This document shows positions 4,341 through 23,515 of a DNA stretch of 64,000 nt, one piece after another. The translations under genes and the position numbers were made by a program. Source of the stretch: a virus. The notes beneath the pieces were generated by a model. That model had not been told where the DNA came from. It did not search any database and worked only from the letters and a program-made list of their open reading frames with translations. The stretch is taken from positions 75,355 to 139,354 of the IMG/VR virus record IMGVR_UViG_3300042482_000702; one strand, given 5' to 3'. Position 1 is the stretch's first letter; each line of letters begins with the position of its first letter.

Positions 4341-4775
4341 TTATCTATTTCGTTCTCTTTTAAGTCTTCTCTCATTAGCCCTTTCTGAACCTGAACACCC
4401 TGGTTTATCATTTCCAAACCCACATAATTGACCATTGTAAATATCCACTTCAGGACCTGATTGTCGTTTTTCTTGCCATTTCCAATAATCCTCTTTGGTT
4501 TTACCTGGATTAGCCGCTATCCAATTATCTATTCTCGCTTTCTGAGCCGCCTCAATTGGAGCTAATCTAGCCGCGTTTCTCGCTTTAACTTGTTTTTCTA
4601 ATTCAGCCCTTTTTTGTTGAGGGGTTAGAACTGTAGTGGTTGTTGGTGTAGCCGCACTTGTTACGGGTGTAGTACCACTCGTCACAGGTGGTGTGGATTG
4701 TTCCGACAATATTCTTTTTTCCAATCTTAAATTAGATTCCTGTATATGTCTAATTTTACTATAACTTGTGTTCAT
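4341..4775 (-). CDS. Candidate internal head protein, paralogue A, 144 aa
   Basis: No known family is recognised. The N-terminal 25 residues end in RILSEQ, an (L/I)xE|Q pattern like the sites cut by T4-type prohead proteases. A Thr/Pro/Ser linker with two TTPVTSA-type units follows (about 26-50), then a charged helix rich in Lys, Arg and Ala, and a conserved C-terminus: NPGKTKEDYWKWQEKRQSGP, then CGFG and GCSGSERANERR. It is a tandem paralogue of the next gene upstream, sharing the linker and C-terminus almost unchanged. Basic and small, it could be a DNA-associated head protein; this is inference. Confidence 0.6.
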   Translation of the reverse strand: MNTSYSKIRHIQESNLRLEKRILSEQSTPPVTSGTTPVTSAATPTTTTVLTPQQKRAELEKQVKARNAARLAPIEAAQKARIDNWIAANPGKTKEDYWKWQEKRQSGPEVDIYNGQLCGFGNDKPGCSGSERANERRLKRERNR

Positions 4776-4808
4776 ACTTTTTGTTTTTTAATATAAAATA
4801 ATTAGATA

Positions 4809-5234
4809 CTATCTATTAGCTTCTCTCTTAACTCTTCTTTCACTAGCTCGTTGCGAACCAGAACAACCTGTAGTTTCTCTTCCAAAACCACACGATTTAC
4901 CATCGTAAATATCCGCATCAGGGCCTGATTGTCGTTTTTCTTGCCATTTCCAATAATCCTTTTCAGTTTTACCTGGATTAGCGGCTATCCAATTATCTAT
5001 CCTTACTTTTCGTTTTGCATTAATTAGAGCCAAATTAGCATCAACCACTTGTTTTTGTTTTTCTCGAGCCTCTAAATATTTTTTAACACGTTCCGCATTT
5101 TTTTGTTGAGGGGTTAGAACTGTTGTGGTTGTAGTCGTAGCAGCACTTGTTACGGGTGTAGTACCACTAGTCACAGGTGGTATGGTTTGTTCAACCAAAA
5201 AATTATACTGGGATTCATTAATTATTATTTTCAT
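4809..5234 (-). CDS. Candidate internal head protein, paralogue B, 141 aa
   Basis: ATG at 5234 is preferred, giving MKIIINESQYNFLVEQTIPP. An ATG further upstream at 5273 would place the start inside the preceding terminator. The N-terminal peptide ends in FLVEQ, again the (L/I)xE|Q pattern. A Thr-rich linker follows, then a Lys/Arg/Ala helix and the same C-terminal block as the neighbouring paralogue (DYWKWQEKRQSGP, CGFG, GCSGSQRASERR). A TATTTATT box lies 3 nt before the ATG. The pair arose by tandem duplication. Function is not recognised. Confidence 0.6.
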   Translation of the reverse strand: MKIIINESQYNFLVEQTIPPVTSGTTPVTSAATTTTTTVLTPQQKNAERVKKYLEAREKQKQVVDANLALINAKRKVRIDNWIAANPGKTEKDYWKWQEKRQSGPDADIYDGKSCGFGRETTGCSGSQRASERRVKREANR

Positions 5235-5251
5235 ATTAATAAATATCACAT

Positions 5252-5289
5252 AAATAAATAAATCCCCAATCAAGGGGATTTATTTATTT
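5252..5289 (-). terminator. Strong intrinsic terminator after glutaredoxin
   Basis: A 16-bp stem (arms ending CCCC and GGGG) with the loop AATCAA, overlapping the stop codon of the glutaredoxin gene. It has the same core as the terminator at 4295, only with a longer AT stem. Confidence 0.75.
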
Positions 5290-5568
5290 TTTAAAATGTT
5301 CTTTGATTATTGCAATTCCTTCATCAATTTCATTGTAATCTCTTTCAGGCGCGAACAATAAAGTATTTGGTTCCACATCCGGAGATTCAACAATCATAAA
5401 TGCCGGAACAAAATCGTTTTCTGTTATCTCCACAAACATATCATATTCGTCTTTGTGCTCATCAATATCTCTCTCAACAAAGAATATGTCGGACTCCACT
5501 AGTTTGTCCTTCATTTGGACGCAATAAGGGCATCCGTTCATTGTGAAAAGAATTAATAACTTATCCAT
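5284..5568 (-). CDS. Glutaredoxin-like protein
   Basis: 94 residues with the thioredoxin fold. The active site is C13-P-Y-C16 near the N-terminus, preceded by a short beta strand (LLILFTMNG), and the cis-proline is in FVPAF at about residue 55. Glutaredoxins of this type return electrons to class I ribonucleotide reductase and other dithiol enzymes in the cytoplasm. It overlaps the upstream thioredoxin gene by 8 nt, so the two are co-transcribed, and the phage also carries nrdA/nrdB. A role in dNTP supply is therefore likely but inferred. Confidence 0.85.
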   Translation of the reverse strand: MDKLLILFTMNGCPYCVQMKDKLVESDIFFVERDIDEHKDEYDMFVEITENDFVPAFMIVESPDVEPNTLLFAPERDYNEIDEGIAIIKEHFKK

Positions 5569-5884
5569 TTAGTAAATTATCTACTAACTCTTTTATTTGG
5601 TGCTCCATTTGCATTCCCGGCTGAGAATAAACTTCTTTACCTTCAGAAAATGATTTTACAGTGGGGACAGCTCTAACACCTAAAGAAGACGCGAATTCTT
5701 GATTAATTTCCACATCCATAGTGTATAATTGAACCTCGGAATTTTCTTTTCTATATTCTTCCGATAATTTTTCAAAAGCAGGTTTCATTACTTTGCATGG
5801 CGAACACCATTTTGCGTGGAAGTCCACGATTAGTTTTTCCCCATTTTTAATCTTTTGTTTTAATTCTTCTGTTGTAATTTCCAT
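5561..5884 (-). CDS. Thioredoxin
   Basis: 107 residues, the usual thioredoxin length. The active site is W26-C-S-P-C30-K (bacterial thioredoxins usually have WCGPCK), and the cis-proline lies in AVPTV at about residue 74. It acts as a cytoplasmic dithiol reductant. T4 and its relatives encode their own thioredoxin or glutaredoxin to serve ribonucleotide reductase; here both occur side by side in overlapping frames. The Gly-to-Ser change in the active site may alter redox potential or substrate choice. Confidence 0.9.
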   Translation of the reverse strand: MEITTEELKQKIKNGEKLIVDFHAKWCSPCKVMKPAFEKLSEEYRKENSEVQLYTMDVEINQEFASSLGVRAVPTVKSFSEGKEVYSQPGMQMEHQIKELVDNLLNG

Positions 5885-5903
5885 AATTTTAATTTAATTT
5901 AAT

Positions 5904-6569
5904 TTATATATTAACCCATCTTCGTCCATTTTTTATATCATAAAAAAAATGGTCTTTTACGTCAGGATAAAGTTCTTTTAATTGTTTAATTTTATACCCT
6001 TCTTTTAATTTATTCTTAACATCAATCACTAAATCAACACTATATTTAGATGTTTTTTGTAAAGTTTCTGTGGTTTTAATAATCCGGTTTTGTTTATCTT
6101 CATCTGACATTAACCCCCAACCTTTTTTAACGGACAATCTTCGTTTTTCTTTTTGTTCAGCCGCTTTATCACCATACAACTCCTCATATGTTTTACCTTT
6201 ATGAGAATTACCGTTTTTAAGTGATTCAGATATTCTAACCCTCATTTCAGGTGAATGGGTATATCCTAAACAACCTTCACCACCTATGGTAGAATTTAAT
6301 CCATTATCGTAGGAATCATAACTTTCAATATATTTTTTTTCCGTTTCATAAATAACATTCAAATCACATTCTTCTATTAACTCTATGGTAAAATTTTCTT
6401 GACCATATTTTTTCATTGAGTTATATAATTTTGATTTATGTTCCGAAGTAAAACATCTTGATAAATGTTCCCCAAACCTTTTTTCTAAAGAATTAACCGT
6501 ACAACCTATATAGATTAAACCATTTTCTTTATTTGTTATTTTATATATTCTCCCTTTTTCTGAGCTCAT
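5904..6569 (-). CDS. GIY-YIG homing endonuclease with NUMOD-type DNA-binding motifs
   Basis: 221 residues. The N-terminal GIY-YIG nuclease domain is clear: RIYKITN (GIY part) followed by LIYIGCT (YIG part) and an Arg in LEKRFGEH. The middle carries NUMOD3-like helices (HSPEMRVRISESLKN) and a KTYEELYGDKAAEQK stretch as in phage SegA-like enzymes, and a C-terminal DNA-binding helix-turn-helix is possible. These free-standing enzymes cut intron-less alleles or related phage genomes and promote their own spread. A TATTTATA box lies 13 nt before the ATG. Confidence 0.88.
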   Translation of the reverse strand: MSSEKGRIYKITNKENGLIYIGCTVNSLEKRFGEHLSRCFTSEHKSKLYNSMKKYGQENFTIELIEECDLNVIYETEKKYIESYDSYDNGLNSTIGGEGCLGYTHSPEMRVRISESLKNGNSHKGKTYEELYGDKAAEQKEKRRLSVKKGWGLMSDEDKQNRIIKTTETLQKTSKYSVDLVIDVKNKLKEGYKIKQLKELYPDVKDHFFYDIKNGRRWVNI

Positions 6570-6582
6570 AAATACTCTTTAT

Positions 6583-6590
6583 TATAAATA
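6583..6590 (-). promoter_or_regulatory. TATTTATA box before the GIY-YIG gene
   Basis: TATTTATA on the coding strand, 13 nt before the ATG at 6569. The 13-nt spacing is the same as at 11363 and 16334. Confidence 0.45.
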
Positions 6591-6609
6591 TCACCAACCC
6601 GCCCAAAAG

Positions 6610-6933
6610 TTATTCTTTCTTTGTTAATCTTTTTAATTGTGATATCATATAATCCACCACATTTTTTTTATCCACCGTTGTTAAAATAAATATATCAGTT
6701 TCTAATCTTCTATAAATTAAAACGCCGGTTGAGTCATATTCATATAATCTACCCTGATGCAATGTCACATATTCATCATTCATCCAATCTTCATACCATA
6801 ATAGATGAGATTTACTTAAAAATGTATCCATATCTTTTGGAGATATTGATGTTGTCGGTAAGTCAATAATGCTCGGGTATGAACCAAACCTTTCTTTGAA
6901 GGTGTCTATACAATTTTGAGGCATTTCTTTCAT
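6610..6933 (-). CDS. Hypothetical protein, 107 aa
   Basis: Not recognised. The sequence is a compact mixed alpha/beta protein with several aromatic residues (LWYEDWMNDEYV) and a Lys-rich end. The start is 1 nt after the stop of the PcfJ-like gene, so it is the second gene of that transcript. Confidence 0.6.
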   Translation of the reverse strand: MKEMPQNCIDTFKERFGSYPSIIDLPTTSISPKDMDTFLSKSHLLWYEDWMNDEYVTLHQGRLYEYDSTGVLIYRRLETDIFILTTVDKKNVVDYMISQLKRLTKKE

Positions 6934-6934
6934 A

Positions 6935-8647
6935 TTAAAAATCTAATTCTACATCCATATTTATGACTTGATTATAATTATAAGAATTCATTTTATAAAT
7001 TAAATCGTTCTCCCATCCTAAATTATAAACTATTGGTGGTGTAGTACCCGAAATATGTAATCCTGTTCCCTCCGTTCTTTTATAATCTGAATGTATTTCT
7101 TTCCCTTTAACTTTAGCAATAATACTTAAAGTATCAAATAATTTATCATTCACCAAATTTGAAATTCTATCATCCAACACATTCAAAACTTTATCCCAAC
7201 TATCGTCTAACAGTTTATTATACTTACCTAAAGTTTGAACTCTATCTAAATTAAATTTTTTACCATTATGAGATATACGATATTCGATTGACGCTCTGTC
7301 GCTAGAATCAATATCACCTCTTCTTAATGATATTAATAAAGATTGTGGTGTTTTTATATATGTTTTAACACAATTAGATTGAGATATTGATTCCATATTA
7401 TAATCTTTGGTGGTTTGTAATAAAAGAGGTATATAACAATCATCTGATTGAAGAATAACATTATTAACTTCTTCTACAAATTTTTCATTATATATTCTTT
7501 TAAAATCCCCCGAATGATAGTGAGAATGTTTTTCTGACCAGTCAAAATGTTCCTCAATAAATTCAGTATGTGTATTTGATTTCCATTTAACCGGTTCTTC
7601 AAATCTTTTTAATGAATCGTAAAATCTAAAATGGTCTCTATAAGTCGAACTACTAATTTCCCCATCAATAACTAACTTAAAAATTTCAAAAGCATTACTT
7701 TTCTCTTTATTATTTAAAAACTCACTACCAATACCAATATAAAACCCCATTATGGGATTTTCCAACATTTTTTTAATTATGTCGTCATTTTGAGAGGTTA
7801 TATAATTTTTCCCAAATAATTTACAAGCAAAATCATAAGTCTCAAAATTACAAGATTTAACGGTATGTAAAATTCGTTTTAATTTATCACCACTAACATT
7901 ATGGACATCCATAAAGGCATCAATATATTTAAAATCTCTTTTCACCAAATCTTTTTTCTTTGGTTGAGGAAATACCCTCATCAACTCATACCAATTATTT
8001 GGGAATTTAATACCCGAATTATCCAAATATCTTTTATATATTCTCATATCGGGAGACATATCTAAATATTTTTCAGTACCAGGAATGGCATTTACAAATG
8101 AGTTAATGATTTCATTTATTTTTTCCGGAACATCCTCAATAATACCTTTAGCCAAAAAACCATTTAGAATTTCTCTTAAATAAACTCTTATTTTATTTAT
8201 TGGGTCAACATTAAACATACACCTTCTAACATTTTTTCTACATTTTGTTTTAAGATGATAATTAGTTAAGGAACCTGTGTATAATGAATTACTTTTAGAA
8301 TTAAATGTTACGAATTGACATTTAGTAGCCACCTTGAACCACTTACCAGCAAGTCGTCGTCTTTTAGCGTATTGGAAAATTTTAAAAGATATTTTATCCT
8401 CATCGGTGGTAACACAGATTATTACTCTCTCAAATGATAAGGAACACAATGGGTTTGAGTAATTGTTTTTAAACTCATCTTCGGTGTTATGGGTGTCTTT
8501 ATATACAAAACTACCCCAAGGAGTCATATTAGCATCATAATCATCGGAAAAAGGACACTCTGTTAACACCTGTTTTATAGGGTTAGAACTATGATATTCA
8601 ATTGTCTGATGTTGTCTGATTGTGTAATTATATATCTCTTGACGCAT
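6935..8647 (-). CDS. PcfJ-like domain protein, 570 aa
   Basis: The C-terminal third (about residues 418-480) matches the PcfJ-type pattern: a Cys in SQSNCVKTYI, then SLLISLRRGD, SIEYRISHNGK and a Gln plus Asn segment. PcfJ-like proteins are common on conjugative plasmids and in large phages; their biochemical role is unknown. The N-terminal half has no recognised domain but includes basic segments (KYAKRRRLAG-like, CRKNVRRC). A strong host-type promoter lies 16 nt upstream, so early expression is likely. Domain assignment is by eye. Confidence 0.65.
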   Translation of the reverse strand: MRQEIYNYTIRQHQTIEYHSSNPIKQVLTECPFSDDYDANMTPWGSFVYKDTHNTEDEFKNNYSNPLCSLSFERVIICVTTDEDKISFKIFQYAKRRRLAGKWFKVATKCQFVTFNSKSNSLYTGSLTNYHLKTKCRKNVRRCMFNVDPINKIRVYLREILNGFLAKGIIEDVPEKINEIINSFVNAIPGTEKYLDMSPDMRIYKRYLDNSGIKFPNNWYELMRVFPQPKKKDLVKRDFKYIDAFMDVHNVSGDKLKRILHTVKSCNFETYDFACKLFGKNYITSQNDDIIKKMLENPIMGFYIGIGSEFLNNKEKSNAFEIFKLVIDGEISSSTYRDHFRFYDSLKRFEEPVKWKSNTHTEFIEEHFDWSEKHSHYHSGDFKRIYNEKFVEEVNNVILQSDDCYIPLLLQTTKDYNMESISQSNCVKTYIKTPQSLLISLRRGDIDSSDRASIEYRISHNGKKFNLDRVQTLGKYNKLLDDSWDKVLNVLDDRISNLVNDKLFDTLSIIAKVKGKEIHSDYKRTEGTGLHISGTTPPIVYNLGWENDLIYKMNSYNYNQVINMDVELDF

Positions 8648-8663
8648 AGGTGTCTATTTTTGT

Positions 8664-8695
8664 CAAAGATACAATAAATTTTGGGATAAAACAAA
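8664..8695 (-). promoter_or_regulatory. Host-type promoter for the PcfJ-like gene
   Basis: On the minus strand TTTG, 20 nt, then TATCTTTG, an exact match to the Bacteroidetes -33/-7 pattern (TTTG, TAnnTTTG). The -7 box ends 16 nt before the ATG at 8647. Confidence 0.75.
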
Positions 8696-8986
8696 TTAAT
8701 TTAAAGAAAAAGATGCGAATTGAGTATGGTAAATTAATGATTTAATTTTATCCATATCAACTTCCTCATTTTTAGATTCTTTAAGTTTAACAACAATAGA
8801 GATGAGTTGTTTTTGTGTTAAGGAAACATCTTCACCATTTTCAACATTATCCAATGATTGTTGTTTCACTCTATCATAGAAGTCATCTTTCAATAAGTCC
8901 CCAATTAACTCTATTAAGTCATTGGGGTTCTTATCGAAGAAAGTTATAAATTGATTAATGTAGATTTCAACATCAACATTTTTCAT
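8696..8986 (-). CDS. Hypothetical acidic helical protein, 96 aa
   Basis: Not recognised. The predicted protein is largely alpha-helical and acidic (VDVEIYINQF, LKESKNEEVDMDKIKSL). It lies 22 nt after the LRR gene's neighbour frame and 48 nt before the PcfJ-like gene; the -33 box of that gene's promoter abuts its 3' end. Confidence 0.55.
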   Translation of the reverse strand: MKNVDVEIYINQFITFFDKNPNDLIELIGDLLKDDFYDRVKQQSLDNVENGEDVSLTQKQLISIVVKLKESKNEEVDMDKIKSLIYHTQFASFSLN

Positions 8987-9008
8987 ATCATTATTTTTTA
9001 AAATGGGG

Positions 9009-10388
9009 TTAGGAAACAGTATAAAATCCTGGTTCTTGTTCGCTAAGGTTCTCTAAAACTTTTTCAGGTATTTTAACATTTGGGTTACTACCTCTTAAGT
9101 TAATGAACGCCAAGTCAGGAAGTTCAGAAACACTCTCTGGAATATTCTCTATTTGAGAATTACTTGGTAATGATAAAAATTGTAAATTCTTTAAATTTCC
9201 AATTGATTCCGGTAAACTTTTACAAATGTTTTGTAATAATAACGCTTCAAGATTTACAAATCTACCAATAGAATCCGGAACATCTAAAGCAATATCCTCA
9301 CTGGACTTATTGTTAATTAACAAACGTAATATAGTATCTGGTAAACTTTCAAATAATTCGTCAAACCCATAAAGAGCCACAAACTTACCTGATGAACTAT
9401 CCGGATAATTTACCTCAACAACATCACCACCAGTTTTAACTAAACCTTCAGCAAATTCTTTTTTGAAGTATTCTTTAAGTTCTTTTCCTTCACCATTTAA
9501 GAATTCAACAAGATTTATTTGTCTATCTCTTCTATTCATAAATTGACTAGATGGGAAATGGAATTGGTATCTGTTTTTTGGTAATCCGGTTTTATCACTA
9601 AATTCTGTATCGTTATTTGGTAATACAACATAATATTGTCCACCTTGTTTTAAGTAGTAATCAAAATAAGTTCCATCAAGTTTTGACGTACACCAACTTG
9701 TTTCACCAAACTGGTCCGTAGTATCATAATACCCTCCAAAAAAAGCACCCGCCTCTTTAGCCGGTTGACTCATATCACTAATTGTCACAACAGTCCAACT
9801 TGGACTAACAAAATCAATTTTTGAACCAGGATAAGCAAAAGGATTTTCTTTAGTCAATCTTTCAGCCTTATTTGATTTAGAATCTTTTGTTAATTTAAAA
9901 TCTTCTACAGCAGTATATAATTGCTCAGGAGTTATTTTATTAATATCTCTTAAATCCTCCGGAATTCTTCCTTTAAAACGCTCATGTTTTAATAAATCAA
10001 CACCAAGTTTATCAATGTCTTCTAAAAACATTCTTCTATATTCTTGAGCCACTCTCTTATACTCCGGAGTACCAACTTCAATGTCAGCTCTCTCATCAGT
10101 AAAAGTTGGTCTTATAAAATGTTTTAACATCCATTGAGTATACTTACCAACCTTAACATTATCCATATCTTCTAAAGTAGCACCTTCTTTATCGAAACCT
10201 TGAGGAACTCTAGTTGTTGGGTCAGCGAATATTATTGTTTTTAATGTTTCCAAATCCATAGCACCTTTAGATTGTTTACCTGGTGCCGTTGGTTTTGCCG
10301 TTGCAGATGGTTTAACTAATTTATCGTATAGTATCTGGAAACGAGATTGTTCTGTAATCAAATTTGATAATACTGAGGTTATTTTCAT
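9009..10388 (-). CDS. LRR protein with WCT-type domain and candidate head-targeting N-terminus
   Basis: 459 residues. The N-terminus MKITSVLSNLITEQSRF ends in LITEQ, the same (L/I)xE|Q pattern as several neighbours. Residues about 200-310 carry a module with SWCTSK, then FDYYLKQGGQYYVVLP and YQFHF...QFMNRRDRQI, a pattern I have met in uncharacterised phage proteins. Residues about 380-445 are leucine-rich repeats (LPESIGNLKNLQFLSLPSNS; IPESVSELPDLAFINLRGS). LRRs usually mediate protein-protein binding. The gene has both a host-type promoter (76 nt upstream) and a TATTTATA box (16 nt upstream). An injected effector is one possibility; this is inference. Confidence 0.7.
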   Translation of the reverse strand: MKITSVLSNLITEQSRFQILYDKLVKPSATAKPTAPGKQSKGAMDLETLKTIIFADPTTRVPQGFDKEGATLEDMDNVKVGKYTQWMLKHFIRPTFTDERADIEVGTPEYKRVAQEYRRMFLEDIDKLGVDLLKHERFKGRIPEDLRDINKITPEQLYTAVEDFKLTKDSKSNKAERLTKENPFAYPGSKIDFVSPSWTVVTISDMSQPAKEAGAFFGGYYDTTDQFGETSWCTSKLDGTYFDYYLKQGGQYYVVLPNNDTEFSDKTGLPKNRYQFHFPSSQFMNRRDRQINLVEFLNGEGKELKEYFKKEFAEGLVKTGGDVVEVNYPDSSSGKFVALYGFDELFESLPDTILRLLINNKSSEDIALDVPDSIGRFVNLEALLLQNICKSLPESIGNLKNLQFLSLPSNSQIENIPESVSELPDLAFINLRGSNPNVKIPEKVLENLSEQEPGFYTVS

Positions 10389-10404
10389 TTTAATAGTTTT
10401 TTAT

Positions 10405-10412
10405 TATAAATA
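10405..10412 (-). promoter_or_regulatory. TATTTATA box before the LRR gene
   Basis: TATTTATA on the coding strand with 16 nt to the ATG at 10388. It lies downstream of a host-type promoter for the same gene, which suggests two phases of expression. Confidence 0.45.
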
Positions 10413-10463
10413 TTCGTTTTTTACAAATAATTCATCAAACACCATTACTTTTGTTTGACGGGA

Positions 10464-10494
10464 CAAAGATAATGATAAATTTTAATTATCCAAA
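10464..10494 (-). promoter_or_regulatory. Host-type promoter upstream of the LRR gene
   Basis: TTTG, 19 nt, TATCTTTG on the minus strand, an exact fit to the Bacteroidetes consensus. It is placed between the methylase gene and the LRR gene. Confidence 0.72.
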
Positions 10495-11349
10495 TTAAAT
10501 TTTATAATTCATAATTAAAAGTTCTTCTCCCATTGTTTGTGCCTTACCCTTCTTAGCCGCAGCCGCTTTTGCAAATAATTTTCTCTCCCACTGATATTGA
10601 TTCTCCGGAAACCACACTTGTAATTGGGGAAAATCATAGTAAGATAATGAGAACTTCCCTTGAATACCTTTTAAAGTGTCTGCCAATCTTTCGTGGTCTT
10701 CTCTTCCAAAATCATGATTAGAATAATAACTTCCCTCACCCACAATGTAATATGGGGGGTCAACATAAAAATAACTTGTAGGGCCATCATACTTCTCTAT
10801 AACCGTTTGGAAATCCATATTTTCAATATGTGTTATACTTTCAAATAATTTTTGCCATTCAGGTTTTTTTAATTTATTTTTGAATGATGTGAATTTTGAA
10901 TGGTAATTACCTTTTAAATCTATAAATTTTGATTTAGATGGATTCGCACCTGAAAAAACTTGAGTTAACACATAGACATACTTCGCAGCAATCTCATAAT
11001 TTGGGTCTTCACCAATAATTAAATCGTCTGAATAAATTTCTTTTTGAAACTTATCAAAATTTTCTCCACAAATAGGATTAGTTGGGACGACATTTTTCTC
11101 CTGAACCACCAATTTCTCACATTCTTCTAACAATCGTCTATGATTAACCACACAACGATACAGATTGTGATTGAGGGAATTAAAGTCGTTATAAACCACT
11201 TTTTTTAGATTGGGGTATTCCTCTAACTTCATTCCAAAGAATATCCAAAATTGACCTGAAAATGGTTCACAATATGTCTCAATGTCTTTTGGGATGAATG
11301 GAACTATGAATGTTTGCATCTTACTCTTACCGCCTATATAACTTATCAT
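10495..11349 (-). CDS. dam: Dam-type adenine-N6 DNA methyltransferase (class D12)
   Basis: 284 residues. The N-terminal SAM-binding motif is YIGGKSK (residues 4-10), followed by YCEPFSG in the usual FxGxG position, and the catalytic DPPY motif is at about residue 195 (YFYVDPPYYI). This is the alpha-type order of D12 methylases, which transfer a methyl group to N6 of adenine. Phage Dam enzymes protect DNA from restriction or regulate packaging and expression. It is not next to an endonuclease, so it looks like an orphan methylase. A TATTTATA box lies 13 nt before the ATG, pointing to late expression. Confidence 0.88.
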   Translation of the reverse strand: MISYIGGKSKMQTFIVPFIPKDIETYCEPFSGQFWIFFGMKLEEYPNLKKVVYNDFNSLNHNLYRCVVNHRRLLEECEKLVVQEKNVVPTNPICGENFDKFQKEIYSDDLIIGEDPNYEIAAKYVYVLTQVFSGANPSKSKFIDLKGNYHSKFTSFKNKLKKPEWQKLFESITHIENMDFQTVIEKYDGPTSYFYVDPPYYIVGEGSYYSNHDFGREDHERLADTLKGIQGKFSLSYYDFPQLQVWFPENQYQWERKLFAKAAAAKKGKAQTMGEELLIMNYKI

Positions 11350-11362
11350 AATTTTTGTTTTT

Positions 11363-11370
11363 TATAAATA
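11363..11370 (-). promoter_or_regulatory. TATTTATA box and A-rich leader before the dam-like gene
   Basis: TATTTATA, then 13 nt consisting mostly of A (AAAAACAAAAATT), then ATG at 11349. The A-rich leader resembles those before the genes at 16320 and 4775 and fits translation without a Shine-Dalgarno site, as in Bacteroidetes. Confidence 0.45.
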
Positions 11371-11419
11371 TAAGAAATAAAAAGTGTAAAAGCAAGTTTT
11401 TCTTTTAAAATTTTTCCAC

Positions 11420-11427
11420 TATATTTG
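11420..11427 (+). promoter_or_regulatory. Possible host-type -7 box for the small plus-strand gene
   Basis: TATATTTG matches TAnnTTTG, 21 nt before the ATG at 11449. No TTTG was found at the right distance upstream, so this is a weaker candidate. Confidence 0.4.
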
Positions 11428-11448
11428 ATATAAATTAATATTATTTAT

Positions 11449-11667
11449 ATGGAAGCAATAGAAGCACAAATTATCGAAGAAAAAGACATTAAAACAACAG
11501 AAAAAATTAATCAAAATACAAAGGGTGAAAAAGCAGGTTGTAAATCTTGCAAAAAGAAAGGAATATCAAACACCGATTGGCTTATGATATTCCTTTCATC
11601 TTATATTTTATTCTCATCAGTTTATGGTACAATAAAATTGATTAAAGAACTTATGTTGTTATTCTAA
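11449..11667 (+). CDS. Small single-pass membrane protein, 72 aa
   Basis: A hydrophilic N-terminal half with a short Cys pair (CKSCKKKG, about residues 31-38) is followed by one membrane segment (LMIFLSSYILFSSVYGTIKL, about 45-66). It is transcribed opposite to its neighbours and ends 2 nt from the stop of dnaJ. No family is recognised. The clear membrane segment, a plausible promoter and the small convergent gap support a real gene. Confidence 0.6.
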   Translation: MEAIEAQIIEEKDIKTTEKINQNTKGEKAGCKSCKKKGISNTDWLMIFLSSYILFSSVYGTIKLIKELMLLF

Positions 11668-11669
11668 AA

Positions 11670-12596
11670 TTACCTACGAGAGAACTTAACATTTAATTTT
11701 ATAAACAAATCCCCAACATTATTAAACCCTTTGGATTTAACTCTAAGGGGTTTTGTTGTGTCAAAGTCAATCGGTAATTTAACCGATATATTTCCTTTTG
11801 GATGGTTAACATCTAACGTGTCTTTCTTTAACGATTCTAAATCAAAGAAAGCGTTATATATTAAATCATTTCCAAGTTTTTCAAAGTTATTTTCAGGCGA
11901 AACTTTAATTCTTAAAACTAAATTCCCATAAATACCATTATGGAAATCACCTTTACCTTGTAATCTTAAAAATTGACCATCATCAACACCGTGAGGTAAT
12001 TTAATAGATAAGTTCTCAGTTGAACTTTTAGTGGTCTCCCCATTACAAGACCCACAAACTCTTGAATATGAGAACCCTTTTCCATTACAAGAATAACAAA
12101 CTTGTCTCACCATCTGAATAAACATTCCAGTCCCAATTCTTTGGATTGTGAACCCTTCTCCTCTACAAACATTACAAGTTACTCTGTCACCCCCATTACC
12201 ATTACAATCACCACATTTATGTTTTCTTTGATAAGTTATTGTTTTATCAGAACCATTATAACTTTCTAAAGCCCCCACCACAACTTCAATTACTTTATCC
12301 GGAACTGATGGTTGTCTTTGAGAGTGCATATTATTAAACATATCTTCAAATGGGTTTCCACCACCACCAAAAGGATTAAAACCACCACCACCAAAAGGAT
12401 TTGACCTTTGATTATCGTATTGTTGACGTTTATCGTTATCACCAATCGTATCAAACGCTTCAGAAATTTCTTTAAACTTATTCTCATCCCCACCTTTATC
12501 CGGATGATGTTCTACCGCCAATTTTCTATAGGATTTTTTAATCTCTTCTTGGGTAGCTGTTTCATTAACCCCTAATGTCTCATAAAAATTTTTCAT
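11670..12596 (-). CDS. dnaJ: DnaJ-type co-chaperone
   Basis: 308 residues. The J domain (1-65) has HPD at 31-33 in VEHHPDKGG, followed by a Gly/Phe-rich region (NPFGGGGFNPF) and a zinc domain at about 127-185 with four CxxCxGxG-type repeats (CGDCNGNG, CNVCRGEG, CYSCNGKG, CGSCNGE). The C-terminal substrate-binding part is shorter than in bacterial DnaJ (about 370 residues). DnaJ stimulates DnaK ATPase and delivers clients. A phage copy probably redirects host DnaK to phage assembly or replication complexes; this is inferred. Confidence 0.92.
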   Translation of the reverse strand: MKNFYETLGVNETATQEEIKKSYRKLAVEHHPDKGGDENKFKEISEAFDTIGDNDKRQQYDNQRSNPFGGGGFNPFGGGGNPFEDMFNNMHSQRQPSVPDKVIEVVVGALESYNGSDKTITYQRKHKCGDCNGNGGDRVTCNVCRGEGFTIQRIGTGMFIQMVRQVCYSCNGKGFSYSRVCGSCNGETTKSSTENLSIKLPHGVDDGQFLRLQGKGDFHNGIYGNLVLRIKVSPENNFEKLGNDLIYNAFFDLESLKKDTLDVNHPKGNISVKLPIDFDTTKPLRVKSKGFNNVGDLFIKLNVKFSRR

Positions 12597-12650
12597 ACTT
12601 ATTTACTTATATTTAATTTAAAACTAATCTATTTAATAACAACTATCAAC

Positions 12651-13292
12651 ATGAATTACTTAATTGTTCTATTCAAAAATAAAATAAAAAAGAAAATAAT
12701 CAATAAATTTAAGACACATAAAAAGTCAGATGATTTATTTATTATCTTATCTAATCAAAGTAATGATGTTATTTTTGAAAAAAAGTATATAAATGGGGAT
12801 GAATGTAGTTATGAATTAGCAATATTGGAAAAGTCCCCCGATACATTTCTTCCTGTATATTTAAAAGATGAGTTAGGTCGACAAATTAAAGTTAATTTAG
12901 ACGATGGTGATTATACAATAACAAAAATAATAACCTATAAAATTGAGGAGACTTTATTAGACGTTATTTTAAATAAAAAAATAAACTCTCATGAGTTTAT
13001 TAAATTGTATTTAGACCCAGTGGGGTTTAAATTAATGTCAAAACTAAATAATAAAATTATTGTCCAGAATGACGATAAAGTTAATTTATTCATTTTAAAA
13101 AATGAGTATGATTCTTCTCGTTTTATAGAATCCATTTCAAATAAATTTATGTCAGAAAAAAGAATGGATTGCATGTTCATTAAAGATTGTTCTACACCCC
13201 AAAAAAAATCCCTGTATAATTTATTAATTAATCAGGGGTTTTCAAAAGACTACCTTCTTCGGTATTCAACAACTCATCCAGTAAAAAGATGA
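12651..13292 (+). CDS. Hypothetical protein, 213 aa
   Basis: Not recognised. The N-terminus is strongly basic (FKNKIKKKIINKFKTHKKSD), followed by a beta-rich middle and a helical end. It is on the plus strand, divergent from dnaJ with 54 nt between the starts, and its last 65 nt overlap the 3' end of the minus-strand gene at 13228. Codon use and length argue for a real gene. The basic N-terminus could bind nucleic acid; not shown. Confidence 0.65.
   Translation: MNYLIVLFKNKIKKKIINKFKTHKKSDDLFIILSNQSNDVIFEKKYINGDECSYELAILEKSPDTFLPVYLKDELGRQIKVNLDDGDYTITKIITYKIEETLLDVILNKKINSHEFIKLYLDPVGFKLMSKLNNKIIVQNDDKVNLFILKNEYDSSRFIESISNKFMSEKRMDCMFIKDCSTPQKKSLYNLLINQGFSKDYLLRYSTTHPVKR
13205..13242 (-). 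terminator. Terminator for the 14228-13228 gene run
   Basis: On the minus strand a hairpin with arms CCCTG/CAGGG (5 bp core, then one mismatch and an AT extension) is followed by eight Ts. It lies inside the 3' end of the plus-strand 213-residue gene and overlaps the stop of the 88-residue gene. Confidence 0.5.
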
Positions 13293-13494
13293 ATTCAGTA
13301 TTTGAGATATCAATTTTAAATTGTTTATAATTTCTATCTACATCTCTGAAGTTTTTTTGAACTGTTTTATAATCCTTTTCTTTAAGTTCAAAAGCTATCA
13401 TACATTTCCCGTCAGGGAATAAACTTTCAATAGCATCCGAAATTATTGCTAACTTTTGAATTATTCCATCAACACTTTTTTTATTCTCATCCAT
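13228..13494 (-). CDS. Hypothetical protein, 88 aa
   Basis: Not recognised. Mixed alpha/beta, charged (FELKEKDYKTVQKNFRDVDR). Its start overlaps the end of the upstream 63-residue gene by 34 nt, so these are translationally linked. Last gene of a run that starts at 14228. Confidence 0.5.
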   Translation of the reverse strand: MDENKKSVDGIIQKLAIISDAIESLFPDGKCMIAFELKEKDYKTVQKNFRDVDRNYKQFKIDISNTEFIFLLDELLNTEEGSLLKTPD

Positions 13495-13652
13495 AAGGTT
13501 AGTTTTTCCGGTATTATTTGTTTTGGAAGAATATCCTCCTTTTTAATTTTAACAATGTCATTGATTAATCTTGATTTTTCATTATCTAAATTAATTTCAT
13601 CTTTTTTAAGTTCATTCTGATACCACTCTAGGTGTTTCAAGCTCTTCTTCAT
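13461..13652 (-). CDS. Small coiled-coil protein, 63 aa
   Basis: The sequence is almost all helical with charged heptads (LEWYQNELKKDEINLDNEKS). It overlaps both neighbours (34 and 41 nt) in a compact run. No family is recognised. Gene status rests on position in the run and the clear helical pattern. Confidence 0.5.
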   Translation of the reverse strand: MKKSLKHLEWYQNELKKDEINLDNEKSRLINDIVKIKKEDILPKQIIPEKLTLWMRIKKVLME

Positions 13653-14040
13653 TGTCTTCTAATTCAATTTTATCAGTTTTTATATTAAATTTTAATTTTT
13701 TTAAATTATTCAAATTTTGTTTTTCAAAAATAGTTTTTAACTCATCAACTTTATATTGGAAGAGCTTATCTTTTTCTTCTCTGTCCAAATTATACTTAAT
13801 AATGTTTCGTAAATTCTCTGAAGTCTTTTCAATATTATCTTCATTTATTTCACTAACAAACGAAAAAAATCTATGGTCCGGTACTTTACTCTCTTGTTCC
13901 ATTAATTTGTCTTCCTCAACATATTTTTTAGGTAATTTCCAATCCATAGGAAACGCAACATCAAAACTTAAATATTTTTCAATTTTTCTAACTGATTGTA
14001 GATAAGGAAATAATGTTGAAAATTCTTTATATAAACTCAT
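13612..14040 (-). CDS. Hypothetical protein, 142 aa
   Basis: ATG at 14040 (MSLYKEFSTLFPYLQSVRKI) is chosen because it sits 2 nt after the stop of the preceding gene; a longer frame from 14070 would overlap it. Not recognised. The C-terminal third is acidic and helical (KIELEDNEEELETPRV). Confidence 0.6.
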   Translation of the reverse strand: MSLYKEFSTLFPYLQSVRKIEKYLSFDVAFPMDWKLPKKYVEEDKLMEQESKVPDHRFFSFVSEINEDNIEKTSENLRNIIKYNLDREEKDKLFQYKVDELKTIFEKQNLNNLKKLKFNIKTDKIELEDNEEELETPRVVSE

Positions 14041-14042
14041 AA

Positions 14043-14228
14043 TTAATATTTTATAATATAGGTTAAACAATAGGATATTGCTAATCCCAAATAGATAAGT
14101 TCCCCATTATACAATAAAAACCTTTTTGGTGGATTTGATATTAGGGAACCTATTAATCTAGTCACCGTCCTTAGAACGGTTAAGACTGAAAAGATAAATA
14201 TAAACAATAAAATTGTTTTAATATCCAT
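14043..14228 (-). CDS. Small membrane protein, 61 aa
   Basis: Two hydrophobic segments: residues about 4-20 (TILLFIFIFSVLTVLRT) and 44-60 (LIYLGLAISYCLTYII). It is the second gene of the run after the histone-like gene (2 nt gap). No family is recognised; a holin-like role is possible but there is no evidence beyond topology. Confidence 0.6.
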   Translation of the reverse strand: MDIKTILLFIFIFSVLTVLRTVTRLIGSLISNPPKRFLLYNGELIYLGLAISYCLTYIIKY

Positions 14229-14230
14229 AA

Positions 14231-14407
14231 CTATTCGTCTTTTTTTCTTTCAGATAAAATTTCTTTTCGTAAAGTGTCTAAAGATTTTTTTAAATCTTGA
14301 GATAATTTTCTAGCTCTAGTGCCAGCACTTTTATTACCTGCGAAGAATTTTGTAGCATCCACTGATAATTCTTCAGTTAAAGCCTTAATTTGTTCTAATG
14401 TTTCCAT
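14231..14407 (-). CDS. Hc1-like histone H1-type protein, 58 aa
   Basis: ATG at 14407, stop TAG at 14231-14233. The sequence (METLEQIKALTEELSVDATK, then FFAGNKSAGTRARKLSQDLK) matches the short Hc1-type 'histone H1-like' proteins widely found in Bacteroidetes: a first helix ending DATKF, the Gly-Asn-Lys-x-Ala-Gly-Thr-Arg motif, then a basic helix. Those proteins are thought to bind DNA. In a phage it could compact DNA or affect host nucleoid. The match is from memory of the family, not a search. Confidence 0.75.
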   Translation of the reverse strand: METLEQIKALTEELSVDATKFFAGNKSAGTRARKLSQDLKKSLDTLRKEILSERKKDE

Positions 14408-14488
14408 GTCAAAGTTTGTTAATAATTTATTTTTATTTCTTTAAAAGTAAATTTATTTATACCATTGTAAACACTATATAGACTTTTT
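14408..14488. other. Short AT-rich gap without a gene
   Basis: About 80 nt between the histone-like gene and the 155-residue gene. It contains TATAAATA on the minus strand at 14454-14461, 46 nt before the ATG at 14407; this is the opposite orientation of the TATTTATA box seen elsewhere, so I do not call it a promoter. Confidence 0.3.
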
Positions 14489-14956
14489 TTATGTTTTGAG
14501 ACTATTATTCAATACTTTGTATATCATTAAAATCATCTCTAAATCAGATTTTGTAAATGTCTTATCTAAATTAAATAAATCAGTAAAAAATTCACCCACT
14601 GAAAGTCTAACTTTTTCCTCCTTTTGATGATAAAAAACGTCATCAAAAAAGGATTCAAAATAATCGTAATGACTTCCTTTAAGATGGAAATTAATATTTT
14701 CTTTTTTAAAATTTTCAATTGTTTTTTTCCAACACCAATCAAAATGATTTAAATTATCTTTATCAGACAAAATTATTTTTGTTTCGTTGGAAATGGTATT
14801 TTGACCTAAATAGGTTTGTAGAATTAAAGAGTTAAGTGAGTGAGAAAAGTCCGAATATAGTTCTAATTTTTCGGGAATAACATTGTTAACCCTAAACCAG
14901 ACTTCTACATCTTCGGGGGACATTGGCTTTGTTATATAGTTAAAAAAATTCTCCAT
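14489..14956 (-). CDS. Hypothetical protein, 155 aa
   Basis: Not recognised. Starts MENFFNYITKPMSPEDVEVW; helical with several aromatic residues and no membrane segment. The ATG lies inside the 3' arm of a hairpin that also serves as a terminator for the upstream gene, so expression may be tied to termination there. Confidence 0.6.
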   Translation of the reverse strand: MENFFNYITKPMSPEDVEVWFRVNNVIPEKLELYSDFSHSLNSLILQTYLGQNTISNETKIILSDKDNLNHFDWCWKKTIENFKKENINFHLKGSHYDYFESFFDDVFYHQKEEKVRLSVGEFFTDLFNLDKTFTKSDLEMILMIYKVLNNSLKT

Positions 14957-14975
14957 AGAGTTAGTCTATGGAGAA
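14949..14975 (-). terminator. Terminator hairpin that includes the next gene's start codon
   Basis: An 11-bp perfect stem (TTCTCCATAGA/TCTATGGAGAA) with a 5-nt loop, followed on the minus strand by a run of seven Ts. It ends the transcript of the gene stopping at 15004. The ATG of the gene starting at 14956 is inside the stem, and the T run is its codons 4-5. Confidence 0.7.
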
Positions 14976-15003
14976 ATTATAATTCATTTTATTTTTTTGT
15001 AAA

Positions 15004-16320
15004 TTATTGAGTCTTACCTTTGTAAGTAATCAGTGATTTCATTCTATCAAACTCTTCTGATATTTGTTTTGATTGTTTAGGTTCTAACGACTCTAATTTA
15101 GCCATCAATTTAGACCCTTCATCTTCACCAGCATTGTCATTAACAGTTGGTTGTGGAGCCTTATTGTAAGCTTTCTTTTTAATTTGCCCTAATATATTCT
15201 TCTTTCTGATGGTATTACGTTTTTTATTAACATCAGATTCTCCAGTGTTAGCCCATTCCGGATTATTACCTGTTCTTGAAGAACCCTCGATATTGTCTGT
15301 AATCCATTCTTCATTTGGATTTATTTCATCATACACTAAATTTTCTTGACCCGCAGCTGTTAAATTATCTGTGTATTCTTCAACAGCTCCTGATGGGATA
15401 TAAGCCTTTTTACTCATTTTAGATAACTCACCATTTCCTTTTGGGAATATTTTAGGTTCTGTCGAGTACTCACCTTTAGAACCATCCTTTAAATATTCTG
15501 TCATTTTTTTAGTAACAGATTTAAGATAATCATCATTTTCTTTACCTGATTTTTTATGAACTTGAATTTGTTTATCCAAACCTTTAGGTGTTCCCATTGA
15601 TTTAATATTTTTTTCTTTACTTTGTTCCATAATAACTTTTTCAATTAACTCAATCATTTGATTTTCTGTTAATTTAACAGACTCTTTCTGTTCACCACTT
15701 TTTTTCTTAAATTCTTTAGTTTCTTTTGGAATTGATTTTTCGTCAGATTCTCCCATCTCTAATTTTTTGTTTCTTCTTAACATTTTAAAATCTTCAGTAT
15801 CTAATCTATTGTTTTTATTTTTATCTAAAACTCTTTGATTCCCTTTTAAAGATTCTCCCATTTCCGATTTTTTACTTTTTCTCAACATTTTAAAATCTTC
15901 AGTATCTAACCTATTGTTTTTATTTTTATCTAAAACTTTTTGATTTCCTTTTAAAGATTCGTTAACCTCTGTTCCACAAAATTTCTCAATTCTATCTTTA
16001 GGGGCGTTGTTTTCTTTATGCCATTTACAAGCTTCTTCATCATAATCATAATTACCGTCAGATTCACCATCACCTTCTTCTTCTTCAATATAGTCAAAAG
16101 ATTGGCTTTTTGGAAATTTCTTTGAGACATCGGAAATTCCTTCACCGCACTCTGAACATTCTCCTTCATACATCATTCCACCACACTCACAAATATTAGA
16201 TTCTTTCTCATCCATACTAGTTTTTATTTTAGAGACTAAATTATCAGCTCTTTCTTCTAAAGTTTCATTTAAAATTTTAGACACTAAATTTTCTAAATAA
16301 GTCGTATTTAATTTTTTCAT
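15004..16320 (-). CDS. Candidate prohead/internal protein with EF-hand-like repeats, 438 aa
   Basis: The N-terminus (MKKLNTTYLENLVSKILNE|T) carries the (L/I)xE pattern seen in neighbouring candidate head proteins, and a second copy of the peptide lies inside (KLTENQMIELIEKVIMEQ). A Cys-rich segment CECGGMMYEGECSECG (about 45-60) looks like a zinc ribbon. Two copies of an EF-hand/dockerin-like loop (LDKNKNNRLDTEDFKML, about 127-140 and 163-176) follow in a duplicated block. The rest is highly charged and low in hydrophobic residues, as in scaffold or internal head proteins. A TATTTATA box lies 13 nt upstream. The exact role is unknown. Confidence 0.6.
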   Translation of the reverse strand: MKKLNTTYLENLVSKILNETLEERADNLVSKIKTSMDEKESNICECGGMMYEGECSECGEGISDVSKKFPKSQSFDYIEEEEGDGESDGNYDYDEEACKWHKENNAPKDRIEKFCGTEVNESLKGNQKVLDKNKNNRLDTEDFKMLRKSKKSEMGESLKGNQRVLDKNKNNRLDTEDFKMLRRNKKLEMGESDEKSIPKETKEFKKKSGEQKESVKLTENQMIELIEKVIMEQSKEKNIKSMGTPKGLDKQIQVHKKSGKENDDYLKSVTKKMTEYLKDGSKGEYSTEPKIFPKGNGELSKMSKKAYIPSGAVEEYTDNLTAAGQENLVYDEINPNEEWITDNIEGSSRTGNNPEWANTGESDVNKKRNTIRKKNILGQIKKKAYNKAPQPTVNDNAGEDEGSKLMAKLESLEPKQSKQISEEFDRMKSLITYKGKTQ

Positions 16321-16333
16321 TTTTTGTTTTTAT

Positions 16334-16341
16334 TATAAATA
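16334..16341 (-). promoter_or_regulatory. TATTTATA box before the 438-aa gene
   Basis: TATTTATA, 13 nt including AAAAACAAAAA, then ATG at 16320. The layout is nearly the same as at 11363. Confidence 0.45.
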
Positions 16342-16343
16342 TA

Positions 16344-17123
16344 TTATTTTTTATTTAAAAGCATTTTTTCGTACTCATAAGAGATAATTGTTTTAATAAC
16401 ATTTTCACTTATATTATGTTTTTCACTAATATTTTGAATCGCTTTCTTAACCATATCATTCTCATACAGTTTTAAAGCTTTAATATCGCCTTGATTACAA
16501 TATGGGAATTTTTTACATTTTTTCTTAACTTGGACAAATTTTCCACCAGGAATTTGAGTTTTAGAAGCACCTCTCCAATCTTTTTTACTTGGCGATTTAG
16601 CCCAAGCCGCGGGAGTTTCATATGAACCAGATGAACCTGTAGATTCAGTTGCCTCAACTTTTTTAATCTCACCATCTTCATCTTCTTTTATACAATTAGG
16701 AACCATTCTATCACCTTTCTTTTTTACACCTTTTTGTTGATATCCCGCCCAACATTTTTCTTGCATTTCTTGTTTGGTTGTTGAAAATAATTGTCCTTCA
16801 AATCCACCAGCTAAAGATGCTCCCATAGATTCAGTTGCCTCTTCTTTCTCACCCATAATAGGTAAGGATGACGATAATTTACCAACAGGTTTTTTTAATT
16901 TAGTATCTCCAACTAATTTAGTTGCAATTCCTTTATTAATCGGTCTCTTAATCATGTCTAATTTTTTATTTTTTTTATTTGACTCACCTAAATCTTTTGT
17001 AATATCTTGAGCGGCAATTATTGTATCAACAGCATAACCATCTCTATAAGGAGCTGTTTGTGTTATCTCCCCGTTAATTTTACTTTTCAAATCATCCGAC
17101 ATTTCATCTTCTTCTATTTTCAT
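16344..17123 (-). CDS. Putative head-associated protein, 259 aa
   Basis: Low-hydrophobicity, charged protein. Contains ATESMGASLAGGFEGQLFS and ATESTGSSGSYETPAAWAKS, two related Gly/Ser segments, and a Cys motif CWAGYQQKGVKKKGDRMVPN (about residue 124) that I recall from uncharacterised proteins of large T4-like phages. The C-terminus is helical and again resembles the shared peptide (KLYENDMVKKAIQNISEKHN). Its stop lies 23 nt before the start of the 438-residue gene. A structural or scaffold role is inferred from context. Confidence 0.55.
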   Translation of the reverse strand: MKIEEDEMSDDLKSKINGEITQTAPYRDGYAVDTIIAAQDITKDLGESNKKNKKLDMIKRPINKGIATKLVGDTKLKKPVGKLSSSLPIMGEKEEATESMGASLAGGFEGQLFSTTKQEMQEKCWAGYQQKGVKKKGDRMVPNCIKEDEDGEIKKVEATESTGSSGSYETPAAWAKSPSKKDWRGASKTQIPGGKFVQVKKKCKKFPYCNQGDIKALKLYENDMVKKAIQNISEKHNISENVIKTIISYEYEKMLLNKK

Positions 17124-17126
17124 TTC

Positions 17127-17372
17127 CTAAGCATTTTTAAGTCTTGACTCCCAAAAACTTCGTTGATTCCACATAACACTATATAATTCTCTAAATGACC
17201 TAATTACTATATCTTTAACCTCACCCTCAAGTTTACCTCGTTTTATTTCACGACCGAGTATTTCAATAAGTTTTTGTTCATATTGTTTAATTGTCGTAGT
17301 ACCAAAGAAATCTTTAATTTCTTTTCGCATCATAACTTCAATTTCTTTTTTTTCCGCTGCTGTAAATGCCAT
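17127..17372 (-). CDS. Hypothetical helical protein, 81 aa
   Basis: Not recognised. Entirely helical with a basic middle (MMRKEIKDFF, LGREIKRGKLEG) and an aromatic end (MWNQRSFWESRLKNA). 3 nt before the next gene, in the same run as candidate head proteins. Confidence 0.55.
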   Translation of the reverse strand: MAFTAAEKKEIEVMMRKEIKDFFGTTTIKQYEQKLIEILGREIKRGKLEGEVKDIVIRSFRELYSVMWNQRSFWESRLKNA

Positions 17373-17373
17373 T

Positions 17374-17778
17374 TTATTTAAGTATTAATAAGTATGTTGA
17401 GGTTATTATTCCAGCAAATGTTCCCACCTTCCATAAAAAAGATTTAAATTTTTGACCGGTAAGTTCTTTATGTAATTTATTAGATAATTCTTCAGATATT
17501 TTTAGTTGTTCGTCTTTTTTACCCAACATAAAATTATTATTATTATCTTTTTCCTCTAATAATGAAATTTGAACGTTTTTTTGTTTTTCTCTTTCTTCGG
17601 TTTTAATTAATTTGTCCTGAGTTAATTTTAATTCACTCTCACACCCATCACCTTTAATAATATCTTTAATAACTAATTTAGCTATCGGTGTTTTAATTTT
17701 TACCGTTGTCGTATCTATTTGTGAAAAACTGCTCAAGCTCGTTAGCAGTAAGAGTGTCAACACTATTAACTTTTTCAT
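17374..17778 (-). CDS. Exported coiled-coil protein, candidate spanin component, 134 aa
   Basis: A signal peptide is clear (MKKLIVLTLLLLTSLSSFSQ), with the SFSQ ending common in Bacteroidetes. The middle is a charged coiled coil (about 45-105) and the C-terminus has a membrane segment (about 112-132). No lipobox Cys is present. Its first 86 nt overlap the end of the upstream TM-coiled-coil gene, an arrangement like Rz/Rz1. It lies close to the amidase, so a role in outer-membrane disruption at lysis is plausible but not proven. Confidence 0.55.
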   Translation of the reverse strand: MKKLIVLTLLLLTSLSSFSQIDTTTVKIKTPIAKLVIKDIIKGDGCESELKLTQDKLIKTEEREKQKNVQISLLEEKDNNNNFMLGKKDEQLKISEELSNKLHKELTGQKFKSFLWKVGTFAGIITSTYLLILK

Positions 17779-18052
17779 TGGTTTGTTTTTTAATTATTGT
17801 TATATTATTATCTATGTGATTAATATCTTTTGTTAAATTAATAACATTACCTTTCACAGAATCAATCTTAATATCAATTCCTTCGTTAACCAATTTAGTT
17901 GAATCAATTTTAGTTTGAAGGGATTCTATTTTATTTTTATACGATTTAACATCAGTTTTAATCCCATTTGTTGTGAAAATATTATACCCACATAAAACAA
18001 TAAGAATCACTAATAAAATATTCTGCTTATTATCACCGACAATATCTTTCAT
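17693..18052 (-). CDS. Rz-like inner-membrane coiled-coil protein, 119 aa
   Basis: One N-terminal membrane segment (ILLVILIVLCGYNIF, about 12-27) followed by a long periplasmic coiled coil (KSYKNKIESLQTKIDSTKL and on). This is the topology of an i-spanin. It overlaps the exported protein gene by 86 nt. Spanin function is inferred from topology, overlap and the nearby endolysin. Confidence 0.55.
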   Translation of the reverse strand: MKDIVGDNKQNILLVILIVLCGYNIFTTNGIKTDVKSYKNKIESLQTKIDSTKLVNEGIDIKIDSVKGNVINLTKDINHIDNNITIIKKQTNEKVNSVDTLTANELEQFFTNRYDNGKN

Positions 18053-18057
18053 GATTA

Positions 18058-18657
18058 CTATGTTTTAATTGTTTTTTTTCTTGATGCTAAAATTTTAGCC
18101 CATTTTGATTTAAATTTTTCATAAAAAGTTTTTAACTTATTAATCATTTCTAAAAATTCGTCATCAGCCTTTATCATTTCACCATTAATATAAATACCGC
18201 TTTCTTCACCAATTGATAAGAAAAAATCAACATCATAATCAATTAATTTACCCGACCATTCAACATTATTTGGATAAATATTTAATTTATTAAAATCCAC
18301 TAAATCTGATACTTCAGCAATAAACTCATCCATTGTTTCTTGGAAAGCAACTTTTTCATCTGTTGTTAATTCTAAATCTGTTTGTTCTTTACCGTGTAAA
18401 ACCAAAATTCCACCAGAAATTCTATATCCTTGTGTTTTATCGTCTTTACTTTCATTATCATCTTCAATCGTATCTTCAACAGATTTAGTCACGTCGAATT
18501 TTTTAGTGATGTCACCTGAAGAAACATCAGACTCTTGTTCTGTGATAATATTATATTGTTGTCTAATACTATCAATGTCTTCATTAACTAAACTATTTGA
18601 TAACATTTTTCTAGACGCGTTAAGTAAATTTCTTATTTCATCATGCGAGTTGTTCAT
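18058..18657 (-). CDS. Candidate head-associated protein, 199 aa
   Basis: The first 45 residues are helical and end in QQYNIITEQES, again the (L/I)xE|Q pattern. An acidic linker follows (SVEDTIEDDNESKDDKTQGY), then a folded domain from about residue 78 (RISGGILVLHGKEQTDLELT ... VEWSGKLIDYDVDFFLSIG) and a basic helical tail. The start overlaps the amidase gene by 17 nt. No named family is recognised. Confidence 0.6.
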   Translation of the reverse strand: MNNSHDEIRNLLNASRKMLSNSLVNEDIDSIRQQYNIITEQESDVSSGDITKKFDVTKSVEDTIEDDNESKDDKTQGYRISGGILVLHGKEQTDLELTTDEKVAFQETMDEFIAEVSDLVDFNKLNIYPNNVEWSGKLIDYDVDFFLSIGEESGIYINGEMIKADDEFLEMINKLKTFYEKFKSKWAKILASRKKTIKT

Positions 18658-23478: not shown

Positions 23479-23483
23479 ATTAT

Positions 23484-23515
23484 TAAATATAATCATTAAC
23501 ATCCTTTAAGTCAAA
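23484..23515 (-). promoter_or_regulatory. Host-type promoter for the methylase-endonuclease pair
   Basis: TTTG, 20 nt, TATATTTA on the minus strand; one mismatch at the last base of the -7 box. It directly follows the gp46 terminator. Confidence 0.5.

Follow-up and report, generated by a model that had tools for sequence, protein, structure and literature searches.

Candidate cleavable head-targeting leaders on unrelated proteins of a large T4-type phage

Introduction

In phage T4, the prohead protease gp21 cuts after L/I-X-E, the propeptides are 7-65 residues long and a 10-residue capsid-targeting sequence (CTS) leader suffices for packaging, while Alt is cut at its C-terminus too (PMC9026906). 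It was suggested earlier that CTS leaders let T4-like phages acquire varied proteins (PMC9026906). The passage of PMC12373910 that cites Repoila 1994 credits the T-even phages with at least ten ip genes, recognised through their signal, and Ip1-Ip3 block GmrSD restriction (PMC12373910). Here we describe a stretch of 64,000 nucleotides (the window), which covers positions 75,355-139,354 of the 322,477-base IMG/VR record IMGVR_UViG_3300042482_000702 of a T4-type phage. Five of its proteins, starting at window positions 4775, 5234, 10388, 16320 and 18657, have N-terminal segments that end in a hydrophobic residue, any residue and Glu, and similar short leaders (tags) are found in front of unrelated proteins (bodies) throughout the genome. 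We infer docking, cleavage and head location from these sequences, and give a probability of about 0.8 to the reading that the tags are cleavable head-targeting leaders of the T4 type which are expanded, diversified and modular. The host group appears to be of the Bacteroidetes type, judging from the low G+C content and the cultured Flavobacterium relatives of the capsid protein (41% identity across about half its length).

Shared N-termini across the genome

We analysed 347 open reading frames (ORFs) from stretches that span most of the genome, within its first 310 kb. The (I/L)xE motif with the Glu before the predicted cut (P1) at residues 5-22 was observed at 1.9 times its density in protein interiors (p=4e-8). 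This loose form corresponds to the T4 motif as published; a stricter form, picked after the tags were seen, is 3.2 times enriched (p=1e-11). Relatives gave N-terminal enrichments of 2.3 and 3.1 times, and the control Bacteroidetes phages phi38:1 and crAss001, taken as being without an S77 protease from their annotation and kind with no search made, gave 1.0 and 1.3 times with no significant enrichment. Immuto, a cultured T4-type phage of Flavobacterium sp. LMO8 taken for comparison, was observed to carry similar tags with a weaker enrichment.

A genome-wide alignment of N-termini, proposed in the initial annotation of this DNA, reveals that unrelated bodies do share them. As an ungapped comparison across different body families, it yielded 34 pairs at E<=1e-3; internal segments produced 1-8 such pairs, C-termini 4 and shuffled N-termini 0-1. 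Twenty proteins from 16 body families make up the largest cluster, and a list curated by eye holds 44 candidate tagged proteins across 38 body families. In addition, a protein near the capsid gene (genome 236712-237233) has a tag-like C-terminal end, ESLRDLIKKVLSE↓NTTTI, where the arrow marks the predicted cut.

One tag string, M-K-I-I-I-T-E-[NS]-[KQ], was found in at least 119 viral-contig stretches, with 0 for a scrambled control. Among the matches listed, its loci comprise 91 ORFs with at least 26 unrelated body families, which include a lysozyme with LysM, a cell-wall hydrolase, a pterin dehydratase and a DHH-type protein, and 45 of 73 have a second (I/L/M/V/F)xE site, at residue 15 or 16. 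In genomes of bacteria and archaea (257 Gb), a search returned three stretches, none of which has an ORF of more than 35 amino acids behind the string. The codons of the string form 56 distinct 27-mers for 4 peptides with the third positions free and, as far as codon usage tells, the string is under selection at the protein level.

Exchange of leaders between bodies

The initial annotation described the five window proteins as having no common body, which fails for those starting at 4775 and 5234, a pair of paralogues with 68% identity over 130 amino acids. This kinship strengthens the tag reading because the DNA of the two genes shows no relationship ahead of the predicted cut (15 of 42 nucleotides identical), and 67 of 75 nucleotides agree once the Glu codon is reached. 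A homologue of the pair in another phage (L392) has a third tag, MKKFLITESEKKTIRQLYGLSE↓Q, which also ends in LSE↓Q and resembles another tag type of the window genome (3737, 59100).

A further example of leader exchange is a 2H phosphoesterase at genome 29610-30173, which carries the leader MELNEQLTKIKTMMGINE↓N and matches the Pfam profile Acb1 (PF23474, E=3.5e-7, 30.5 bits against a cut-off of 27). The leaders of its homologues include MIKLKDLITE↓A, MKRIKLFEEFMNE↓A, MKHIKLFEEFIAE↓K, MLKLSNLLTE↓G and others; nearly all end in a hydrophobic residue, any residue and Glu, and one clade is without a leader. Two HxT motifs, HCT and HMT, are visible in the relatives, and the best sequence match of one relative in the PDB is Acb1, although weak (E=0.026). 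This tagged protein is a candidate anti-defence cargo with a predicted role in the degradation of cyclic oligonucleotides; alternatively, it may have a 2'-5' RNA ligase/LigT role. In the paralogues, the L392 protein and the Acb1-like homologues, the leader behaves as a module that can be separated from the body. The FEEFIAE↓K and FEEFMNE↓A leaders of some Acb1-like relatives resemble, by eye, the T4 IPII/IPIII leader. A T4-CTS-like tag was also noticed by eye at genome 216959-217375, but most tags of the window genome differ from the T4 CTS.

Predicted processing machinery

The initial annotation had named the prohead protease of the phage as something to be found, and a gp21-type S77 protease is present (Peptidase_S77, E=8e-25; PHROG head maturation protease, 6e-43). 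It bears an N-terminal ILIE site of its own. Portal and gp23-type capsid proteins are also encoded, as identified by homology, and a scaffold-like protein is encoded at genome 240171-241625. The capsid propeptide ends in LINE↓A, positioned as expected behind ENQAS, in 78 of 78 relatives with variable residues following, and the S77 protease is predicted to cut there. Matches to S77 were found in 11 of 20 and 14 of 20 tag- or Acb1-bearing records; this co-occurrence is partial because many, indeed most, of the records are fragments.

We noticed that the Glu-to-Glu spacing in the capsid propeptide end, ENQASFLINE (genome 238282-240138), equals that of the E[NS]Q tags cut at residue 16. The link is suggestive in relatives and weak within the genome (3 matches against 0.2 expected). 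As a lead, the spacing is a possible recognition element shared by capsid propeptide and tags.

Tagged proteins of the window

All five ORFs start with ATG on the minus strand, and the endings given for them in the initial annotation are real: RILSE↓Q (4775), FLVE↓Q (5234), NLITE↓Q (10388), KILNE↓T (16320) and NIITE↓Q (18657), with the P1 Glu at residues 25, 15, 13, 19 and 40 respectively. The site of the 18657 protein lies 40 residues in, too far for a short tag. An internal copy of the peptide in the 16320 protein (LTENQMIELIEKVIMEQ, residues 217-233) was borne out, as was a box upstream of three of the five genes, where TATTTAT lies within about 26 nucleotides of 5234, 10388 and 16320. The features are, in window coordinates:

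4701-4775, minus strand: tag of the 4341-4775 protein, MNTSYSKIRHIQESNLRLEKRILSE↓Q, P1 Glu25; paralogue homology begins at the Glu codon
4341-4700, minus strand: body of tagged protein 1, paralogue of the 4809-5234 protein, with no Pfam or PHROG match
5190-5234, minus strand: tag MKIIINESQYNFLVE↓Q, P1 Glu15, of the tag family MKIIITE[NS]Q
4809-5189, minus strand: body of tagged protein 2, paralogue of the 4341-4775 protein
5239-5260, minus strand: two TATTTAT boxes upstream of 5234
10350-10388, minus strand: tag MKITSVLSNLITE↓Q, P1 Glu13, invariant among relatives; predicted disordered
9009-10349, minus strand: body of the 10388 protein, a domain of unknown kind with C-terminal leucine-rich repeats
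10406-10412, minus strand: TATTTAT box upstream of 10388
16264-16320, minus strand: tag MKKLNTTYLENLVSKILNE↓T, P1 Glu19
15625-15672, minus strand: internal tag-like element LTENQMIELIEKVIME↓Q, residues 217-232 of the 16320 protein
15004-16263, minus strand: body of the 16320 protein with weak EF-hand-like repeats; candidate head-core protein
16335-16341, minus strand: TATTTAT box upstream of 16320
18538-18657, minus strand: N-terminal segment of the 18657 protein, 40 residues, ending in IITE↓Q; all 32 aligned sequences have the P1 Glu40
18058-18537, minus strand: conserved body of the 18657 protein; candidate conserved head protein with relatives in 302 viral stretches

Searches of the five proteins against Pfam and PHROGs gave no head annotation, and no relatives of the 18657, 10388, 16320 and 5234 proteins were found in cultured phages. 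In the model of the 10388 protein, whose Glu13 is kept throughout its family, the predicted local distance difference test score (pLDDT) is about 31 at residues 1-10 and below 50 at residues 1-14, whereas most of the body is modelled at fair to good confidence. A fold search with this protein retrieved only leucine-rich repeats and one uncultured-phage homologue. The 18657 protein gave a model of low confidence (pLDDT 47); in its family of 32 sequences a hypervariable linker follows the invariant Glu40, and a VNE site at residues 24-26 is less conserved than this Glu. The internal element of the 16320 protein is kept in the two closest relatives and was undetected by the same pattern in more distant ones. 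The C-terminus of this protein, FDRMKSLITYKGKTQ, is conserved in relatives and is like MMKYDNKKTL, a stretch within the N-terminal tags found at genome 297774 and 299191; it is possibly a C-terminal version of a tag.

Within 24 nucleotides upstream, TATTTAT was observed in 52 of the 347 genes, including those of the S77 protease and of large tail or baseplate-like proteins. Tagged genes have it more often (18 of 44) than the others (34 of 303; p=5e-6). Since the box precedes the protease and tail or baseplate-like genes, it may be a late promoter or belong to one. Throughout the genome, a TATTTATA box was seen directly before structural and tagged genes, and it may be a late promoter of this phage group.

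Among the neighbouring genes, the 16344-17123 protein has CWAGYQQKGVKKKGDRMVPNCIKE and ATESTGSSGSYE motifs, the latter resembling the sequence behind the capsid cut site, and weak matches to several unnamed PHROGs. A membrane-protein-like ORF at 19274-20335 has a long EEPIEEVVEEPLEE repeat tail. The 22134-22718 protein matches Pfam ICEA (PF05315, E=4e-39), and its neighbour at 22723-23502 looks like a DNA methyltransferase gene.

Interpretation

In the reading that we favour, a short N-terminal leader, usually of 7-33 residues, would dock its protein onto the scaffold core as this grows in the prohead. The S77 protease of the phage would then cut after the Glu of (L/I)xE, as predicted for the major capsid protein, to leave the mature body inside the head, and some bodies probably enter the host along with the DNA. 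The initial annotation had proposed such packaging and processing for the five window proteins. Its capsid-targeting part is supported by the S77 protease, the gp23-type capsid site, the tag swaps that break at Glu and the conservation of the sites within variable or disordered segments, whereas the set extends far beyond five proteins and two members, the 16320 and 18657 proteins, may be head-core components and not injected cargo. Cargo seems the likelier role for the 10388 protein and the 4775/5234 pair. We lean somewhat towards injection of at least some of the tagged bodies. We place at even odds a wider proposal, a general cargo-loading code in large Bacteroidetes-type phages, in which interchangeable leader families would load about 40 proteins, including anti-CBASS-type (cyclic-oligonucleotide-based antiphage signalling system) and cell-wall enzymes, to be trimmed and delivered with the DNA, each lineage having a tag dialect matched to its own core.

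Several observations weigh against head targeting. No published virion proteomics was found for the window phage or a near relative, and the flavophage paper describing Maribacter phage Molly has no mention of mass spectrometry. Several tag-bearing records have no S77 match and three of these exceed 200 kb. Tagging is not universal for a body, as untagged Acb1-like proteins occur in some phages that have S77. The exact size of the 44-member list is soft because it was curated by eye, and single sites could be chance because the three-residue motif is permissive. Molly has no (I/L)xE enrichment though it has a recurrent N-terminus of its own. This N-terminus, MKTxxIKSLVESxSxVExI, was observed on several small Molly proteins, and the Molly capsid protein has an IME↓A-like site; the N-terminus is possibly another tag dialect.

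The alternative that survives best, although we consider it unlikely, is that the tagged proteins belong chiefly to the scaffold or core, where the prohead protease degrades or trims them, and are not delivered cargo. The 18657 family, with its 302 viral stretches, and the repeat-rich 16320 protein with its internal site would fit core proteins, and cleavage into several fragments is known for T4 core proteins, gp22 and gp67 among them (PMC9026906). However, among the tagged bodies are many diverse accessory proteins that resemble enzymes (the Acb1-type 2H phosphoesterase, the lysozyme with LysM, the cell-wall hydrolase, the pterin dehydratase and the DHH-type protein), which is unexpected for a scaffold.

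The tags could also target a membrane, the replication compartment or a chaperone, with an incidental (L/I)xE ending. Several tags do resemble amphipathic helices, and a title cited in PMC10052503 reports that the T4 gp23 N-terminus engages GroEL, but the Glu and the (I/L) are conserved while the remaining tag differs between lineages, and the paralogue homology starts at Glu, so that another destination seems improbable. Least probable of all is a DNA cassette of promoter and 5' end that spread by recombination with no protein-level function, as the box often ahead of the tag and the sharp DNA boundary where the paralogues switch would allow, because the peptide is fixed while third codon positions are free and independent tag types share the same cut-motif ending.

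Comparison with known systems

If head targeting by these leaders is true, the cargo of uncultured giant phages becomes readable from sequence, as any leader-bearing protein would be a candidate head-delivered protein. This would open dozens of phage proteins without a name to study, point to candidate virion-borne anti-defence factors and provide a natural leader set for studying the entry of proteins into phage heads. Furthermore, the long-standing question of which prohead-core component the tag is recognised by becomes testable because tag dialects differ by lineage. No reports of such tags in Bacteroidetes-type phages, or at such a scale, were found in the literature searched, which left most subscription journals outside.

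The inner-body and ejection proteins of phiKZ and SPN3US likewise belong to giant phages with many head proteins and have N-terminal propeptides cut after Glu (PMC10052503). Those propeptides differ in being mostly of 111-254 residues, with two of 20-24, in being cut by another protease and in having no short tag shared by dozens of proteins (PMC10052503). The T-even ip repertoire is closer, as a set of variable, accessory, signal-bearing proteins found through a shared leader, three of them with proven anti-defence roles; here, the candidate anti-defence cargo is instead an Acb1-type 2H phosphoesterase, beside cell-wall and other enzymes. T4 IPI-IPIII and Alt share with the present proteins a short (L/I)-X-E propeptide on non-homologous accessory proteins, together with an S77 protease and a gp23-type shell. 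They differ in that the present genome has about 44 candidates against a handful, several tag families, putative C-terminal and internal copies and other cargo, and is of a Bacteroidetes-type phage.

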